Below, one piece after another: positions 52,390-59,597 of a DNA stretch of 64,000 nucleotides. The translations under genes and the position numbers were made by a program. Numbering within the stretch: position 1 is the stretch's first letter; each line of letters starts with the position of its first letter. Origin of the DNA: Candidatus Margulisiibacteriota bacterium (GTDB lineage: Bacteria > Margulisbacteria > Riflemargulisbacteria > GWF2-39-127); contig QKMY01000004.1 of assembly GCA_003242895.1 (NCBI GenBank), positions 1 to 64,000 of the forward strand, read 5' to 3'. The notes beneath the pieces are model-generated. The model did not search any database. It worked only from the letters and a program-made list of their open reading frames with translations, and was not told where the DNA came from.

Positions 52390-52439
52390 TTGAATTATTC
52401 AAACAATAATGTTATATTCGAATATAGCATTATTGTTTG
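52390..52439 (+). promoter_or_regulatory. Promoter embedded in a 40-bp palindrome, candidate ArsR-family operator
   Basis: CAAACAATAATG (52400-52411) and CATTATTGTTTG (52428-52439) are perfect 12-bp arms around a centre that is itself palindromic (TATATTCGAATATA). A sigma70-type promoter, TTGAAT (52390-52395) and TATATT (52413-52418) with 17-bp spacing, overlaps the palindrome. A repressor bound there would block the promoter, and an ArsR-family repressor is encoded in the operon. GTTTTTT follows the palindrome, so an alternative reading is a terminator. Confidence 0.6.
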
Positions 52440-52514: not shown

Positions 52515-53123
52515 ATGAGCGATTTTATTCGAAATCGGTATACGTCTAAAGTAAGTTCAGCAAATTTAGGGTGTGCAAATTTGCTACCCTATCTTCACGT
52601 GAAAACTGGAAATTACGTCTTGGACCTCGGATGCGGCAGCGGAGGGACAGTTTTTGCTATAGCTCCGCAGGTAGGTTCGACTGGACGTATTTATGGATTA
52701 GATCTAACATCCGGCATGATTGAAGCGGCGATAGCCAGGAATAATTATCAGAATGTTTTTTTCCATATCGGCGATATTCATTCCTTGCCTTTTGAAAATG
52801 CTCTTTTTGATACGGTACTAAGCAACTGTGTCATCAACCATTCTCAAGACAAAGCAACGGTATTCAGCGAGATTTTTAGAGTGCTGAAACCTGATGGATG
52901 TTTTATGATCGGAGACGTAATGGCGGTTGGGAAGCTTCCTGAAGAAATCGCAAATAATTCTTGTAATGTTGCTGCTTGCTGGGGGGGAGCTATTCCGAAA
53001 GATGAATATTTTTGTATGATAAAGGCACAAGGATTTTGTAAAATAGAACAATTAAGCTCTCGGTTCTATCAAAAAGAAAATTATCCGATGGAGAGCATAA
53101 TCGTGAAAGGGGTAAAATCATGA
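52515..53123 (+). CDS. ArsM-like SAM-dependent methyltransferase
   Basis: The 202-residue protein has a class I methyltransferase fold: DLGCGSGG (37-44), IYGLDLTSGMIEAA (59-72), HIGDIHSLPFENALFD (84-99) and VLKPDGCFMIGD (123-134). Two features match arsenite methyltransferases of the ArsM/AS3MT type rather than general enzymes: Cys105 in SNCVINHS and Cys155 in CWGGAI, the positions of the As(III)-binding cysteines in that family. It is shorter than typical ArsM (about 260 residues or more). As first gene of the operon with an ArsR regulator and thioredoxin partners, an arsenic or other thiol-linked substrate is plausible. The stop overlaps the start of the small Cys-rich peptide by ATGA, implying translational coupling. 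Confidence 0.82.
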   Translation: MSDFIRNRYTSKVSSANLGCANLLPYLHVKTGNYVLDLGCGSGGTVFAIAPQVGSTGRIYGLDLTSGMIEAAIARNNYQNVFFHIGDIHSLPFENALFDTVLSNCVINHSQDKATVFSEIFRVLKPDGCFMIGDVMAVGKLPEEIANNSCNVAACWGGAIPKDEYFCMIKAQGFCKIEQLSSRFYQKENYPMESIIVKGVKS

Positions 53124-53239
53124 AAAAAATCACAAACGTTAATATTAAAGCCAAGAAGTCTTCTTGTGGCTGTGCAACGAAAAAGGTAGCACAATGCTGC
53201 GCTAAACAATCAAAGTTAGTAGCGGGATGTCACGACTAA
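53120..53239 (+). CDS. 39-residue Cys-rich peptide, candidate RiPP precursor
   Basis: The ORF starts at an ATG overlapping the methyltransferase stop (ATGA), with AAAGGGG 7 nt upstream, and ends at TAA 53237-53239, 12 bp before the radical SAM gene. The first 13 residues are leader-like and basic (MKKITNVNIKAKK). The rest is a core-like segment with five cysteines at 16, 18, 26, 27 and 37 (CGC, CC and a C-terminal GCHD). There is no acidic or hydrophobic part that would suggest a normal folded protein. Position directly before a radical SAM/SPASM enzyme is the usual arrangement of a ribosomally made, post-translationally modified peptide. It could alternatively be a small metal-binding protein. 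Confidence 0.75.
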   Translation: MKKITNVNIKAKKSSCGCATKKVAQCCAKQSKLVAGCHD

Positions 53240-53251
53240 AAAGGTAAGAAA

Positions 53252-54616
53252 ATGATTAAAGCAAAAAATAATTTGATCACCGAAATAGATGCTGATCATT
53301 ACGCGATCTATAATCCTCTTTCAGGAGCGTTTGATATAGCTTCGAAGGAAGAGCTGGACCGTTTTGTGTCGGGTATCCCTTGTGACGAGCACGAGCGGCA
53401 ACTGTGGCTTGAACGGGGATATTGTTTTGATTCGGACGAAGAAGCACGAGAGTATACTTCTCAGCGCTACAATGATTTCTTAGTCGAAAATCGAAAGAAT
53501 ACTGTGCAATTTCTGCTAATACCATCATATGGGTGCAATTTTAACTGTAGCTACTGTTATCAGAAAGGCGTTGAGGCGAGTACTCCTTTGATAAGCATCG
53601 GGATGATTGATTCTTTTATTGATTTTGTTATAAAGTATAGGGAAAAAGAACATAAAGAAGTTGTTGTCACCCTTTTTGGAGGGGAACCGCTGTTGCCGGG
53701 AGAGAATAATCGCAATATGTTGTCGCACTTGATTACCGCACTTGCAAGAGAGTCCATCAGATTATCAGTTGTAACTAATGGCTACTACCTGTCAGAATAT
53801 ATGAACATCCTGTCACACGCAGATATCCTTGAGGTCCACGTTAGTCTGGATGGAGACGAAGACTTTCATAATGAAAGGCGGCGGACAAAAGACGGTAAAG
53901 ATAGTTTTTCTAAGATTATGCAGGGGATTGATGCTGCAGTTCAGCAAGGGTTCCCTATCAATATAAGGATGATTGTCGATAAACTAAATATTTCAAGTTT
54001 GCCGGGACTTGCAGCTAAATTCGCACAACGAGGGTATCTTGGGCTGCCTAAAGAAAAGTTTAAGTCGACATTGGGTAGGAACTATGAGTTGATTAATGAG
54101 TATCGTAATGCGAAAGACCTATTTGGGTTAACTGAAATGTTTGAAGAATATGTTAAATTGATGATCGAGTATCCATTACTGGAAAAACTATACGTTCCTG
54201 AGTTTTTTGGCATTACAGCTATGATGAACAATAAAGAAATGTATATTCCCAATTTTGATACATGTCCTGCAGCCAAGTCCGAATACGTTTTTGACTGTGC
54301 GGGCACTATCTATGGATGTACGGCAAGTTGTGGGCAAAAAGGCTATGAACTGGGGACCTATTACCCTGTCGTTGCCTGGAACGAACCGGAGTTAAACCTT
54401 TGGAGGTCAAGATCTGTCCTGACGATCGAAAAGTGCAGAGACTGTGTTGTTGACGTTGTTTGTGGCGGCGGCTGCGGCGTCTTGGCAAAAGAGAAAAATG
54501 GCTCGATCAACGCACCTCTATGTAAGCCGGTGAAAGAGGTTATGGATATCGGTATTCGCTATTACAAAGACGAATTATTAAGAAGCGGCGCTCAATGTTG
54601 CGTTGCCGGAACTTAA
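53252..54616 (+). CDS. Radical SAM/SPASM peptide-maturase-type enzyme
   Basis: A 454-residue enzyme. Residues 1-80 (HYAIYNPLSGAFDIASKEE) form the N-terminal part common in SPASM peptide maturases. The radical SAM cluster motif is CNFNCSYC (Cys95, 99 and 102), followed by TLFGGEPLL, VVTNGYYL and HVSLDGDEDFHN. The C-terminal SPASM region has many cysteines (about 338, 349, 356, 360, 395, 398, 404, 408 and 424), enough for two auxiliary [4Fe-4S] clusters, and the protein ends with a CC pair. Such enzymes form thioether or carbon-carbon links in small peptides. The Cys-rich peptide encoded 12 bp upstream is the obvious substrate candidate. It is not a close match by eye to the named maturase subfamilies I know. 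Confidence 0.88.
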   Translation: MIKAKNNLITEIDADHYAIYNPLSGAFDIASKEELDRFVSGIPCDEHERQLWLERGYCFDSDEEAREYTSQRYNDFLVENRKNTVQFLLIPSYGCNFNCSYCYQKGVEASTPLISIGMIDSFIDFVIKYREKEHKEVVVTLFGGEPLLPGENNRNMLSHLITALARESIRLSVVTNGYYLSEYMNILSHADILEVHVSLDGDEDFHNERRRTKDGKDSFSKIMQGIDAAVQQGFPINIRMIVDKLNISSLPGLAAKFAQRGYLGLPKEKFKSTLGRNYELINEYRNAKDLFGLTEMFEEYVKLMIEYPLLEKLYVPEFFGITAMMNNKEMYIPNFDTCPAAKSEYVFDCAGTIYGCTASCGQKGYELGTYYPVVAWNEPELNLWRSRSVLTIEKCRDCVVDVVCGGGCGVLAKEKNGSINAPLCKPVKEVMDIGIRYYKDELLRSGAQCCVAGT

Positions 54617-54650: not shown

Positions 54651-55964
54651 ATGATCAAAGAGATTTCCGAAAAAGATTATGATGAGCTGGTATTCTGTTC
54701 GAAAGGCCCGGTTATTGTAGATTTTTATTCTACTGAATGCCCCCCTTGTGAAGCTCTGGCACCTAAATTCCAGTTTTTTGCTGAAAAATATGTTAACGAG
54801 ATTAAGTTTTACAAAATATTCCGGCAAGGTAATAGAGACCTCTCACGGCAGTTAGGAGTTAAAGGCAGCCCGACAATTCTATTTTATAATAATGGAGAAG
54901 AACTCGGAAAGAGATTGTCTGGCGCGATAAAAAAGAGTGAGATTAACTCCAGCATTCTAAATCTTTATGGCCTGCAGGATAAAAGCCAAGGCATTAAAAG
55001 AGAAGAACTGCACTGTAATGTTGCGATTATCGGAGCCGGACCTGCCGGACTCACGGCCGCTTTATATGCTGCAAATGCAAAATTAAGCACAGTAGTTATC
55101 GATAAAGGAAATACCGGAGGAACTGTTAATATAACGCATTCGGTAAGTAACTACCCAGGGACTGGAAGTTCAATGCAGGGATTCATGCTAATGCATAACA
55201 TGACTGAACAGGTGAAAGCATTTCAGGCTACCATTATGACAGCCGTCGACATTACCGGTATTAATTTGAATGATAAAATAATATATATTGATGACGATAA
55301 AGTAATTCGTGCGGATTCTATCATCCTGGACACTGGGTCGAACCCTAGACCGCTTAATATTCCTGGCGAGAAAGAGTTCTCGGGAAAAGGGATCTCGTAT
55401 TGCGCGACCTGCGATGGGAGTTTTTATGAAGGGAAGAACGTTTTTGTTGTTGGAGGGGGTAATTCTGCAATTGAAGAAGCATTGTATTTGGCCAGATTTG
55501 TTAATAAGCTGACGGTGATACACCAGTTTGACGAGTTTCAAGCTAATAAAGTGGCAGTCGATGAGCTTCTGTCGCATCCGAAGATTAGTGTTTTATGGTC
55601 TCATGAGCCGCGGGCCTTTCTCGGAAATGCCTCTTACGAGCGGGTAGAAGTTGAAGACCTTAAAACCGGAAAAAAGCGAATTCTTGATGATGCCGAAGGT
55701 GTTTTTGTTTTTGTTGGGTATGTCCCGCAAACGGATTTGTTTAAGAATACTCTTGCCTTAGATAACTATGGATATGTGTTTTCGTCTGAACACATGGAAA
55801 CAAATATTCCAGGTGTTTTCGTAGCCGGAGATGTGAGGCAAAAACGATATCGGCAGATTACCACTGCAGTAAGTGATGGGACGATAGCCGCACTTGCAGC
55901 GGGTGAATATCTGAAACAGTTATCAAGGTCCGGGACAAAGGATCTAATCAAGGTAGTGAGGTAG
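54651..55964 (+). CDS. trxB: Thioredoxin-thioredoxin reductase fusion protein
   Basis: The 437-residue protein joins an N-terminal thioredoxin-like domain (1-110, active site CPPC at 30-33 in STECPPCEALAP) to a thioredoxin reductase (about 120-437). The reductase has FAD motif AIIGAGPAGLTAALYA, redox-active CATC (251-254) in GISYCATCDGSFY, pyridine-nucleotide motif VGGGNSAIEEALYLA and the final FAD motif VFVAGDVRQKRYRQI. After the nucleotide motif the usual NADPH-selecting HRRxxFR is changed to HQFDEF, so the cosubstrate may not be NADPH. The order is reversed from the known mycobacterial TrxR-Trx fusion. It would deliver electrons to the operon's chemistry, such as keeping the Cys-rich peptide or methyltransferase cysteines reduced. 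Confidence 0.9.
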   Translation: MIKEISEKDYDELVFCSKGPVIVDFYSTECPPCEALAPKFQFFAEKYVNEIKFYKIFRQGNRDLSRQLGVKGSPTILFYNNGEELGKRLSGAIKKSEINSSILNLYGLQDKSQGIKREELHCNVAIIGAGPAGLTAALYAANAKLSTVVIDKGNTGGTVNITHSVSNYPGTGSSMQGFMLMHNMTEQVKAFQATIMTAVDITGINLNDKIIYIDDDKVIRADSIILDTGSNPRPLNIPGEKEFSGKGISYCATCDGSFYEGKNVFVVGGGNSAIEEALYLARFVNKLTVIHQFDEFQANKVAVDELLSHPKISVLWSHEPRAFLGNASYERVEVEDLKTGKKRILDDAEGVFVFVGYVPQTDLFKNTLALDNYGYVFSSEHMETNIPGVFVAGDVRQKRYRQITTAVSDGTIAALAAGEYLKQLSRSGTKDLIKVVR

Positions 55965-55971
55965 TATTGTT

Positions 55972-56244
55972 ATGGAGCATAATTTTGAAGAGCAGGCAAA
56001 TATTTTGAAGGCGCTAGGCCATCCGACACGGTTACGGATTGTGAAAGGAATTTGCGAGAATGGCTGTAATGTGAGCCGCATGGTTGAAGGGCTCGGAATG
56101 CCGCAAGCAACAGTATCACAGCATCTGGGAGTATTACGGGCGAGTGGTATAATAAAGGGAGAAAAAAGGGGATTGGAGATCTGTTACCGGATAATAAATG
56201 AGAAGGTTAAAAAAATCCTTGAGGTGATGGCCTCTGATAGTTAA
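55972..56244 (+). CDS. ArsR-family transcriptional regulator
   Basis: The 90-residue protein is a winged-helix ArsR/SmtB repressor: ILKALGHPTRLRIVKGI (11-27), the recognition helix QATVSQHLGVLRASGII (45-61), and the wing KGEKRGLEICYRI. Cys28 and Cys32 lie in the helix that in ArsR holds the metalloid-binding cysteines, though not in the classical ELCVCDL form, so the inducer may be arsenic, another thiophilic ion or a redox signal. The gene starts 7 bp after the fusion reductase and lies in the middle of the operon, so it probably autoregulates via the palindrome at 52400-52439. Confidence 0.9.
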   Translation: MEHNFEEQANILKALGHPTRLRIVKGICENGCNVSRMVEGLGMPQATVSQHLGVLRASGIIKGEKRGLEICYRIINEKVKKILEVMASDS

Positions 56245-56307: not shown

Positions 56308-56631
56308 ATGAGCGTTATACAAGTAACAGATGCAACATTCGAGCAGGAGGTCCTCAAATCGGATAAACCTGTTATGGTTGATTTCTGGGCTCCATGGTGC
56401 GGTCCGTGTAGAATGATTGCTCCGGTAGTTGAGGGTATTGCAAATGAATACGAAGCCAAGCTGAAAGCTGCAAAACTCAATACTGATGACAACAGCACTA
56501 CTGCTGCAGAATATGGCATAACCGGCATTCCGTGCCTTGTATTCTTCAAAGACGGGAAAGAAGTTGAGCGGCTTGTTGGATTTTTGCCAAAAGAGCATAT
56601 TGAAAAGAAGGTTCAAAACATTATTGGCTAA
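56308..56631 (+). CDS. trxA: Thioredoxin
   Basis: A 107-residue canonical thioredoxin with [13 protein letters not shown] (active-site CGPC), the cis-Pro segment [12 protein letters not shown], in which an extra Cys precedes the strand, and the C-terminal helix. It reduces protein disulfides in the cytoplasm. It has a good AGGAAGGAG ribosome site and sits between the ArsR regulator and a zinc-ribbon gene in the same direction. ArsM-type enzymes use thioredoxin as reductant, which fits the operon. Confidence 0.96.
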
Positions 56632-56736: not shown

Positions 56737-56958
56737 ATGCCTTCGTTTGACTATAAATGTAATGAATGCGGTCATGGGTTTGAAGTTTATACTGCTACTC
56801 TGGCTACAGAAAAAAACACTGATTGTCCGCATTGCAGCGGCAAAGATACCAGAAAGATATTTCATGCGCTAAATATCGGTTCGGTTTCAAAAGGCAATGA
56901 TTTCCCGGCTCCGGATAAGTGCGAGTCATGTTGCCATGGAGGAATGTGCGGGCATTAA
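56737..56958 (+). CDS. FmdB-family zinc-ribbon protein
   Basis: A 73-residue protein that begins with the FmdB/CxxC putative regulatory signature: PSFDYKCNECGHGFEV, a second CPHCSGKDTRKIF pair, and a tail rich in Cys and His (CESCCHGGMCGH). The first two pairs make a zinc ribbon; the tail could hold another metal or be reactive thiols. FmdB proteins are small and of uncertain function. AAAGGAG precedes the ATG, and the stop lies 24 bp before the next reductase gene. Confidence 0.88.
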   Translation: MPSFDYKCNECGHGFEVYTATLATEKNTDCPHCSGKDTRKIFHALNIGSVSKGNDFPAPDKCESCCHGGMCGH

Positions 56959-56981
56959 AATATCAAAAACTGGAGTGGGCC

Positions 56982-57896
56982 ATGATCGAAGATAAAACGA
57001 CAGACGTTTTAATAATAGGTGCCGGACCGGCTGGGCTCTCGGCTGCTATCTATACTGCCCGCGCAAATAGGAAGACAGTAGTTCTGCGCGGAAAGGCGAA
57101 ATCAAGATTAGAACAGGCACATTTGATTGAGAATTATCCAGGTGTCATGTCAATCAAGGGAACTGAGCTTCTTTTGCAGTTTGAGGAACAAGCCCGGCAT
57201 TTTGGTGTGGAAATTATTGAAACGGACGCAATCGATCTTGGATTAGGCTTTGCCCCCAAGATGATAAATACCCGTAGCGGAATGATTATCGCTGATACCG
57301 TAATTCTTGCTATGGGAAAAGGAAGCAGTAAGGTTGCCATTGAAAATGAAGAAGACTATATCGGACTTGGGGTTTCTTACTGTGTTGTTTGTGATGGTGC
57401 TTTATATAAGAATAAAGTAACTGTCGTCTATGGCAATGATAATGATTCATTTGAGGATGCGTTGATGCTTGAACAATTAGGTTGTAAGGTAACGCTCATT
57501 GTCTCGGGAAAAGAGGCTCAGTACAATAGCGAACTTATTGCGAAAATAAAGAGCAAAGACATTCCTTGTATAAATGAAGCGCGGGTTACGAAGGTTATCG
57601 GTGAAAATGTTCTGACAGGGATTGAATATGAGAAAGCAAGTGAAAAGTCGGTGTTACCGGCAAATGCTCTGTTTATCATCACACATGGCCCTGGTTCGAC
57701 ATTGCTTAAGCGCGCTGGACTAGAGATTGATGCGACAAATTGTATAGAGGTTAACCGGAGTCAGGAGACGAACCTGCAAGGGGTCTTTGCAGCCGGTGAT
57801 ATTATTTGTGGCGGAATGCAAATTGCTACTGCTGTTGGCGATGGTGTCAACGCAGCGCTCAGCTGTCTCCGATATTTGCGGGCAAAAAAAACGTAA
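56982..57896 (+). CDS. Thioredoxin reductase-like flavoprotein lacking the NADPH motif
   Basis: From the ATG at 56982 (304 residues; the upstream in-frame extension overlaps the zinc-ribbon gene and is rejected). The FAD motif LIIGAGPAGLSAAIYTAR is intact and the redox pair is CVVC (134-137) in SYCVVCDGALY. Where normal enzymes have GxGxxA, this one has YGNDNDSFEDAL (150-161), and the HRRxxxR segment is also gone. Loss of both elements is known from ferredoxin-dependent flavin thioredoxin reductases of clostridia and from related oddities, so ferredoxin or another protein may be the donor. It closes the operon. Confidence 0.85.
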   Translation: MIEDKTTDVLIIGAGPAGLSAAIYTARANRKTVVLRGKAKSRLEQAHLIENYPGVMSIKGTELLLQFEEQARHFGVEIIETDAIDLGLGFAPKMINTRSGMIIADTVILAMGKGSSKVAIENEEDYIGLGVSYCVVCDGALYKNKVTVVYGNDNDSFEDALMLEQLGCKVTLIVSGKEAQYNSELIAKIKSKDIPCINEARVTKVIGENVLTGIEYEKASEKSVLPANALFIITHGPGSTLLKRAGLEIDATNCIEVNRSQETNLQGVFAAGDIICGGMQIATAVGDGVNAALSCLRYLRAKKT

Positions 57897-58037: not shown

Positions 58038-59597
58038 ATGGCCGAGATCAAGTGTGAAAATGATTTAATCCCTTATATCATAGGCGATTCGATGATTTTT
58101 AACCTGGACAATAATCTCGTACAGATTGGTCCTATTTCTGTAAAAGATTTATCTATACATGACCTGGAAGTGCCAGAAAATATCATTTTTCGCCCGAATG
58201 ATTACTTGACCATTGAGTTCAATTTTTTTCATCTTTTTTTTATTCATAAAAAACGCCTAAACGTATATGCACTTAAAGACCAGATTGTAAAATTAAAAAA
58301 AATTATGCAAATATCTCTTTTTGCTGGTAAAAAGGATTGGGCCGCTGAGTTGTTGTATCGTGATATCAATACGTTAAACGACGAAGATAAACAGTTTTTA
58401 ATGGTGTATATCCAGAATTACCTCGCAGGGAAGATCGGACATTCTGATATTTTGAATAAGCTGGGAGAATGCTTTCAACGATTTCCCGAATCTCTTCAGG
58501 AAACATTTCGATTGTTTTTGAACCAGGAGTTGGCTAAGAGGGCTTTCGCGATATTTAAGAATAATGATCTCATTTCGGAAGTTGAAGATTTTGATTGCGA
58601 TAGTCTGTGCTTTATTGAATATCAGGAAGGGAAAGATATTTGTCTGTTGAATCATTCAATTAATATAACCGGAGATACAATGATGATATCGAATCCTACA
58701 AAGGTATTGTACCAGGGCGACCGGAAAGTACGCTTTCCGACCACGCTGTTATTGACCCGGTTTAAACCGCAAATGGTCACTGCGTTAGTGGCACAGTTTC
58801 GATATAAATTAATTGAGAATGGCATCGCTCAAATCGGCAGTGGTGATGGCATGGCCTATACCCCGAACCAGGATACCTCTTGTACATTGATCAGGCAAAA
58901 CGGGAATACATTTCTTCTTGATGCTTCAGTTCAGAGTATCCTTAAATCGGCGTACCTTGGGGTTAACGTCTATGAAGATGACATCGTTGCTCTGTTAACT
59001 CACGGATGTCATGGTGATCACGGTGCCGGTTTGTATTTTATTGCTAAAATAAGAACTTTTTTAAATATAAACAATAAGTTAAAGATATTCTGCCATCCGA
59101 TTGTCCTGGATAATTATGTTGAAAAGTGTGCCTATGTTTATCAGGTTGAGTACGAAGGGCAGGATATTGAAAAAGTAAAAGAAGAAATAAGCAGTTTATT
59201 CCAATGTGTAGAGCCTGAAAATGTTGTTATTACACCGTTCAATACTCATTCGGTGCCGACAACAGGGTTTTATTTTTCTTCCATTAATTTTTATGTTACC
59301 GGAGACATGAGCGGGGCAGAATTGGAGAGAAACAAAGTGATCAAAGAAAGTAACATTGATATAACGAAATTTTATTTGGAAAAAGATCTGCAGCAATTTG
59401 ACAAAATCAAACAATTTGTTGTTGACCAGGGCTTTATTGCTATGGAATGCGGGCAGCCTCCGATCCATATTCCAAAAGATCTTATTATAGATATTCTTGG
59501 CGGTGAAGACAATTTAATCAATAAGATTAACGAAAATAAGCTGTTTCTCTACCATACAAGTGGACAGAAAGATGCAAGTGAGTGGGTCGTCTGTTAG
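58038..59597 (+). CDS. Metallo-beta-lactamase-like protein with unusual metal motif
   Basis: A 519-residue protein. Residues 1-220 are of unknown fold with mostly helical character around 85-180. Residues about 225-519 show metallo-beta-lactamase features: DTSCTLIRQNGNTFLLDAS, LLTHGCHGDHGAGLYFI, FNTHSVPTTGFYF, FYVTGDMSG and GQPPIHIP. The key motif is spaced HxxHxDH instead of HxHxDH, one residue longer. No signal peptide is present. The gene comes 141 bp after the reductase gene and precedes a GGDEF protein on the same strand. Function unknown. Confidence 0.65.
   Translation: MAEIKCENDLIPYIIGDSMIFNLDNNLVQIGPISVKDLSIHDLEVPENIIFRPNDYLTIEFNFFHLFFIHKKRLNVYALKDQIVKLKKIMQISLFAGKKDWAAELLYRDINTLNDEDKQFLMVYIQNYLAGKIGHSDILNKLGECFQRFPESLQETFRLFLNQELAKRAFAIFKNNDLISEVEDFDCDSLCFIEYQEGKDICLLNHSINITGDTMMISNPTKVLYQGDRKVRFPTTLLLTRFKPQMVTALVAQFRYKLIENGIAQIGSGDGMAYTPNQDTSCTLIRQNGNTFLLDASVQSILKSAYLGVNVYEDDIVALLTHGCHGDHGAGLYFIAKIRTFLNINNKLKIFCHPIVLDNYVEKCAYVYQVEYEGQDIEKVKEEISSLFQCVEPENVVITPFNTHSVPTTGFYFSSINFYVTGDMSGAELERNKVIKESNIDITKFYLEKDLQQFDKIKQFVVDQGFIAMECGQPPIHIPKDLIIDILGGEDNLINKINENKLFLYHTSGQKDASEWVVC

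Follow-up and report, generated by a model that had tools for sequence, protein, structure and literature searches.

A probable RiPP-like precursor family with an invariant Cys-rich tail, encoded beside a CteB-like radical SAM/SPASM enzyme and an ArsM-like methyltransferase

The window, a stretch of 64,000 nucleotides from a Candidatus Margulisiibacteriota genome, carries an operon on the forward strand. Its second gene is a short ORF (53120..53239), the 39-residue product of which is MKKITNVNIKAKKSSCGCATKKVAQCCAKQSKLVAGCHD; the CGC, CC and GCHD motifs that the initial annotation had read in it are present. The start of the ORF overlaps the end of the preceding gene exactly as described (ATGA at 53120-53123, the upstream stop TGA being 53121-53123), and 12 bp, including a ribosome-binding sequence (53240..53251), separate its stop codon from the ATG of the radical SAM (rSAM) gene at 53252. 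The genetic signals had been called perfect. A Shine-Dalgarno sequence does precede the ORF, but in the window it is moderate (GAAAGGGGTAAAATC-ATG); it is stronger, e.g. AGGAGGTGA, in most orthologs outside Bacteroidota. We conclude that the 39-residue peptide gene is real, and that it is an ORF that gene finders would overlook.

The core module has the order methyltransferase (202 aa, 52515..53123), peptide, rSAM/SPASM enzyme (454 aa, 53252..54616) and thioredoxin-thioredoxin reductase (Trx-TrxR) fusion (437 aa, 54651..55964), both CxxC motifs of the fusion (C30/C33 and C251/C254) being invariant. In the window the operon continues with an ArsR/SmtB-family repressor (55972..56244; above the cutoff of NCBIfam HTH_metalloreg), which is likely the operon regulator. 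Then follow an accessory thioredoxin (56308..56631; above the TIGR01068 cutoff, with separate thioredoxins in four other loci), an FmdB-type zinc ribbon, and a second, accessory TrxR-like flavoprotein (56919..57896), the true start of which is probably near 56982 and relatives of which adjoin the module in genomes G001, G004 and G005. Further along, 58038-59597 encodes a protein of 519 aa that matches ribonuclease Z weakly (E = 1e-7; metallo-beta-lactamase fold) and belongs to no Pfam family.

Upstream of the operon a consensus scan located a promoter-like site with an extended -10 (TTGAAT-17-TATATT, 52390..52418); the scan found 15 sites against 14.1 expected in shuffled sequences, so the site is weak on its own. 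It is overlapped by a near-perfect palindrome of 40 bp (52400..52439; a 20+20 nt inverted repeat, 95% complementary, with no spacer), which is unique in the window and is a candidate operator for the ArsR-family repressor. Alternatively it is a leader hairpin or terminator, as it also scores as a terminator-like hairpin with a T run. Loci in other genomes gave no match to its central ATATTCGAATAT. Between the peptide and rSAM genes, stable hairpins were found in about 10 of 24 loci (L056, L058, L062, L063, L068, L074, L075, L080, L081 and L083), some with T runs and several terminator-like. Such hairpins would reduce expression of the rSAM compared with that of the peptide, which would fit an excess of precursor over enzyme.

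About 60 peptide orthologs were collected from Margulisbacteria, Spirochaetota, Bacteroidota, Bacillota, Myxococcota and Bdellovibrionota, and all of them share the C-terminal core A-[QL]-C-C-[AST]-K-x6-G-C-H-D-stop. The initial annotation had proposed aligning the small ORFs beside homologous rSAM genes, with a conserved Cys pattern on a variable background as the expected outcome and broken frames as the opposite one. The alignment revealed the former, and no broken frame was found in the orthologous loci. In 30 aligned peptides M1, A24, C26, C27, K29, G36, C37, H38 and D39 do not vary, the core spacing is exact in 32 distinct 16-residue cores, and 32 additional Spirochaetota peptides agree with this. 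The basic, leader-like first third and the Cys-rich remainder that had been proposed are borne out, since the N-terminal part (about residues 1-22) is Lys-rich and variable among orthologs and the C-terminal core, AQCCAKQSKLVAGCHD, is invariant; a variable, charged leader followed by a conserved core is what is looked for in a RiPP precursor. The proposed Cys-rich core needs one correction: CC and GCHD are conserved, but CGC is not, relatives having CC at that place or nothing, and the core is AQCC(A/S)K-x6-GCHD. Hence three of the five cysteines of the window peptide (CC-x9-C) are conserved. The peptide of locus L178 (G536), MKTLIKKKSAAQCCATAQCCAKISSIVAGCHD, contains AQCC twice, which may be how the accessory CC arose. 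A fourth Bacteroidia match (G199, E = 7e-4) is interrupted by a stop codon and was discarded as spurious. Nineteen peptide-carrying genomes have one convincing copy each (20 were checked; G094 gave only a chance-level match).

In the subgroup of 39-aa peptides the mean differences at codon positions 1, 2 and 3 were 9.3, 5.8 and 23.4, a pattern that indicates strong purifying selection on the protein. With about 60 orthologs keeping frame and tail, this places the ORF far beyond chance. The ORF is short, lies between two genes and is followed by hairpins in several loci, as would a regulatory or leader ORF, or a chance one, with Cys codons that matter at the nucleotide level only. Such an origin is contradicted by the third codon positions, where variation is about 2.5 to 4 times that at the first and second, and by the retention of the protein after a move to another locus (see below), and we regard it as extremely improbable.

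The adjoining enzyme has the marks of a SPASM radical SAM peptide maturase. Its CX3CX2C cluster (C95, C99 and C102) is kept in 35/35 homologs, as are seven further cysteines (C338, C356, C395, C398, C404, C408 and C424), which include the C-terminal auxiliary-cluster cysteines. The model (pLDDT 90.7) has CteB (5why/5wgg) as its best PDB fold match, and CteB is also the best profile match (E = 1.3e-24). Residues 1-82 are modelled as a b3-a3 domain with RRE-like topology, and an alignment with TigE covers the N-terminus of the latter; a Pfam hmmscan of this segment gave no PqqD/RRE match, and we call the domain RRE-like from its modelled topology and the similarity of the whole model. The remark that the rSAM protein itself ends in CC, like the peptide core, holds in part: the window enzyme has AQCCVAGT, with CC not at the very end, and the motif is absent from the aligned rSAM orthologs. 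A distant rSAM (L069) ends in NQCC.

The enzyme reaches the cutoff of none of the NCBIfam rSAM families among the matches listed. CteB, the thioether-forming SPASM rSAM of the SCIFF system, is its closest solved-structure relative by sequence profile and fold, and in both cases a short Cys-containing precursor, conserved between species, adjoins the enzyme gene. However, the window rSAM scores 83.5 bits against a TIGR03974 cutoff of 425, and its peptide has three invariant cysteines in CC-x9-C instead of the six-Cys SCIFF motif. To our knowledge, SCIFF loci have no ArsM-like or Trx-TrxR partners. The best NCBIfam matches, CefB (NF038107), PapB (NF047865) and TIGR04463, likewise act with Cys-rich precursors, but the scores of 132, 124 and 121 are far from the cutoffs of 600, 340 and 525, and the precursor motif is different.

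A search with the rSAM as query returned homologs from Spirochaetota, Bacillota (Thermoanaerobacterium), Bacteroidota, Myxococcota, Bdellovibrionota and more Margulisbacteria. The nearest genomes are Margulisbacteria, and public records give the same-class relatives the labels Termititenax, Marinamargulisbacteria and Margulisbacteria GWF2_35_9. In 26 of 29 rSAM loci (L055-L083) a short same-strand ORF with the same terminal motif lies just upstream. The genomes without an adjacent upstream ORF are G003, G004 and G005. In G003 the rSAM contig begins inside the gene, and the peptide is found at the edge of another contig, behind a methyltransferase; an in-frame TGA in this rSAM, considered as a selenocysteine codon, is an ordinary stop codon. 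G004 and G005 have the peptide gene at a second locus (L052 and L054), after DUF5714 and rhodanese genes and beside a YgaP-like protein, with a second Trx-TrxR fusion nearby. There the peptide is off the rSAM operon, yet both are retained in the genome.

Within the class, peptide and rSAM are both present in six genomes and both absent from two (6/6 versus 0/2). The same distribution holds for the methyltransferase and the Trx-TrxR fusion of the operon, the fusion in its operonic form being confined to class genomes that have peptide and rSAM. In Bacteroidia, peptide and rSAM occur in the identical 3 of 345 genomes. Among 393 Spirochaetota genomes 37 have the peptide, 36 have the rSAM and 35 have the two together (hypergeometric P ~2e-46, with genomes treated as independent); in the three exceptions (G618, G653 and G497) the absent partner would fall at or beyond a contig end. 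A short conserved precursor gene is thus genetically linked to a peptide-modifying enzyme. Since this short protein, its Cys-rich tail unchanged, stands beside the same rSAM in several phyla, comparative sequence evidence makes it very likely that the peptide is the substrate of the adjacent rSAM. The rSAM tree mixes phyla, with many forks unresolved, which suggests horizontal transfer. In IMG/VR the rSAM search gave distant relatives only and the peptide DNA pattern had no match, so we see no phage link there; the plasmids searched gave one distant rSAM.

Of some 54 stretches, 51 contain the rSAM cluster, 49 the methyltransferase and 48 the TrxR cluster, counts that include a few non-operonic paralogs. 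Accessory neighbours in these stretches are DUF5714 (9), MarR (8), DUF1847 (5), thioredoxin (4) and ArsR (3).

The ArsM-like SAM methyltransferase was assigned from NCBIfam, PDB and model comparisons. Its score against the NCBIfam arsenite methyltransferase PRK11873 is 177 bits (E = 4e-52), below the cutoff of 263. Its best PDB match is CrArsM (5evj), and the top 10 PDB folds for its AlphaFold model (pLDDT 89.8) are all ArsM/AS3MT, so that the fold is that of ArsM. ArsM/AS3MT enzymes are its top matches in both structure and sequence, with the GC, SNC and C-x-GA cysteines aligned, and C20, C105 and C155 are invariant in all aligned operonic members. Unlike ArsM/AS3MT, the protein is short (about 202 aa) and lacks the ArsM C-terminal domain, which carries the third As-binding Cys, and the operonic form is always beside the peptide or the rSAM; a separate, additional ArsM-like gene lies elsewhere in the genome. 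The DVU_1556 family (NF045667) is another ArsM-like family, the members of which may lie near an rSAM gene, but here the methyltransferase scores 93 against a cutoff of 155. Many operonic methyltransferases of a second subfamily have Cys-rich C-terminal tails. Those with vicinal cysteines (GCCCG, SCCCC, CCSCS and CSCCH; L125, L126, L127, L132, L136, L137 and L045) also have an N-terminal CCLSCGGA, and among the aligned members these tails go with peptides that have no extra N-terminal CC.

Genes for metalloid resistance are near some loci: ACR3, ArsC and ArsR near two (L126 and L204), one of which also has a canonical ArsM, and ArsP_1 permeases near four (L204, L213, L137 and L183). At L204 (G449) the peptide, rSAM, methyltransferase, ArsR, ArsC, ACR3 and ArsP_1 permease fall inside about 14 kb. 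The ArsM-like enzyme and these neighbours raise a metalloid role, and because most loci have no ars genes nearby, the link is suggestive only. Margulisbacterial module copies have rhodanese, YgaP-TM, CoADR-Rhd-TusA-DsrE2 and SLAC1 genes nearby, and from the sulfur-transfer genes among the neighbours we infer a possible reactive-sulfur role. Overall, the partner genes suggest sulfur or metalloid chemistry rather than warfare.

This bears on the class of RiPP to which the peptide might belong. A rSAM maturase acting on a Cys-rich core, as the family matches of the enzyme indicate, recalls sactipeptide and ranthipeptide clusters, and a conventional secreted product, antimicrobial or signalling, could be made in this way. 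The clustered neighbours, however, include no recurrent exporter, protease or immunity gene, and a Pfam tally of the neighbours has no recurring exporter or protease among the 25 of 90 families listed. The partners are redox and ArsM-like proteins, and the core is invariant over several phyla in a single-copy gene. We therefore consider a secreted RiPP very unlikely. The invariant core, the single copy and the lack of a recurrent transporter, protease or immunity gene argue instead for an intracellular peptide, probably of redox or soft-element function, and the thiol-rich partners point to the same chemistry. As no dedicated leader protease was seen at the loci, leader cleavage may not occur.

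A different possibility is that the peptide works unmodified, as a free-standing Cys-rich metal- or thiol-binding protein of the metallothionein type, co-regulated with a rSAM that acts on another substrate. Three invariant cysteines and a His-Asp pair could ligate a soft metal without modification, the window operon includes an ArsR, and the peptide has been relocated away from the rSAM operon in G004 and G005. Against this, the rSAM is specifically CteB-like, its co-occurrence with the peptide is nearly exclusive, and among the recurrent neighbours (ORFs of at least 70 aa, besides the peptide) there is no other conserved small substrate gene. This makes an unmodified binding protein an improbable reading, though less so than a secreted one.

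The claim of the initial annotation that the ORF is a candidate RiPP precursor is thus strongly supported as far as precursor status goes, by synteny, co-occurrence and the CteB-like rSAM, and what is argued against is a classical antimicrobial RiPP. Taken as a whole, the best explanation, which we hold to be probable, is that the peptide is the precursor in a new RiPP-like family and is matured by the adjoining rSAM into an intracellular thiol factor. Through the RRE-like domain at its N-terminus, the rSAM would probably recognise the N-terminal part of the peptide, and it would modify the invariant core CC(A/S)K-x6-GCHD. A Cys-derived thioether or other Cys-centred crosslink appears the most likely modification; it counts against a thioether that, with no more than three thiols conserved, at least one of them would be consumed. 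The mature peptide would probably remain in the cell as a thiol factor, working with the ArsM-like methyltransferase and the dedicated Trx-TrxR reductase, and may handle a thiol-bound soft element such as trivalent arsenic, a related metalloid or sulfane sulfur. A more specific version, which we put forward as speculative and rather unlikely in its details, is that the matured tri-Cys peptide is a dedicated carrier of trivalent arsenic, or of another thiophilic element such as sulfane sulfur, to its own ArsM-like methyltransferase, with Trx-TrxR as reductant, replacing glutathione in anaerobes.

No model in NCBIfam (June 2026), Pfam or PHROGs covers the peptide. A literature search, which covered few subscription journals and is therefore weak evidence, found no paper with the motif, DUF5714 or the gene combination, and the passages of the survey PMC9062424 that match the search terms do not describe the peptide family. 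The finding is best called a new precursor family with an unusual partner set within a known kind of system, the RiPP-like rSAM systems. It adds a widespread family absent from these three collections, and it is unusual in how little the core changes from phylum to phylum. A core so constant suggests that the peptide gives rise to a physiological factor, like PQQ and mycofactocin, rather than to a weapon. Peptide-carrying Thermoanaerobacterium strains are culturable, and the association of a rSAM, an ArsM-like methyltransferase and a thioredoxin reductase with one peptide offers a testable link between RiPPs and metalloid or sulfur metabolism.
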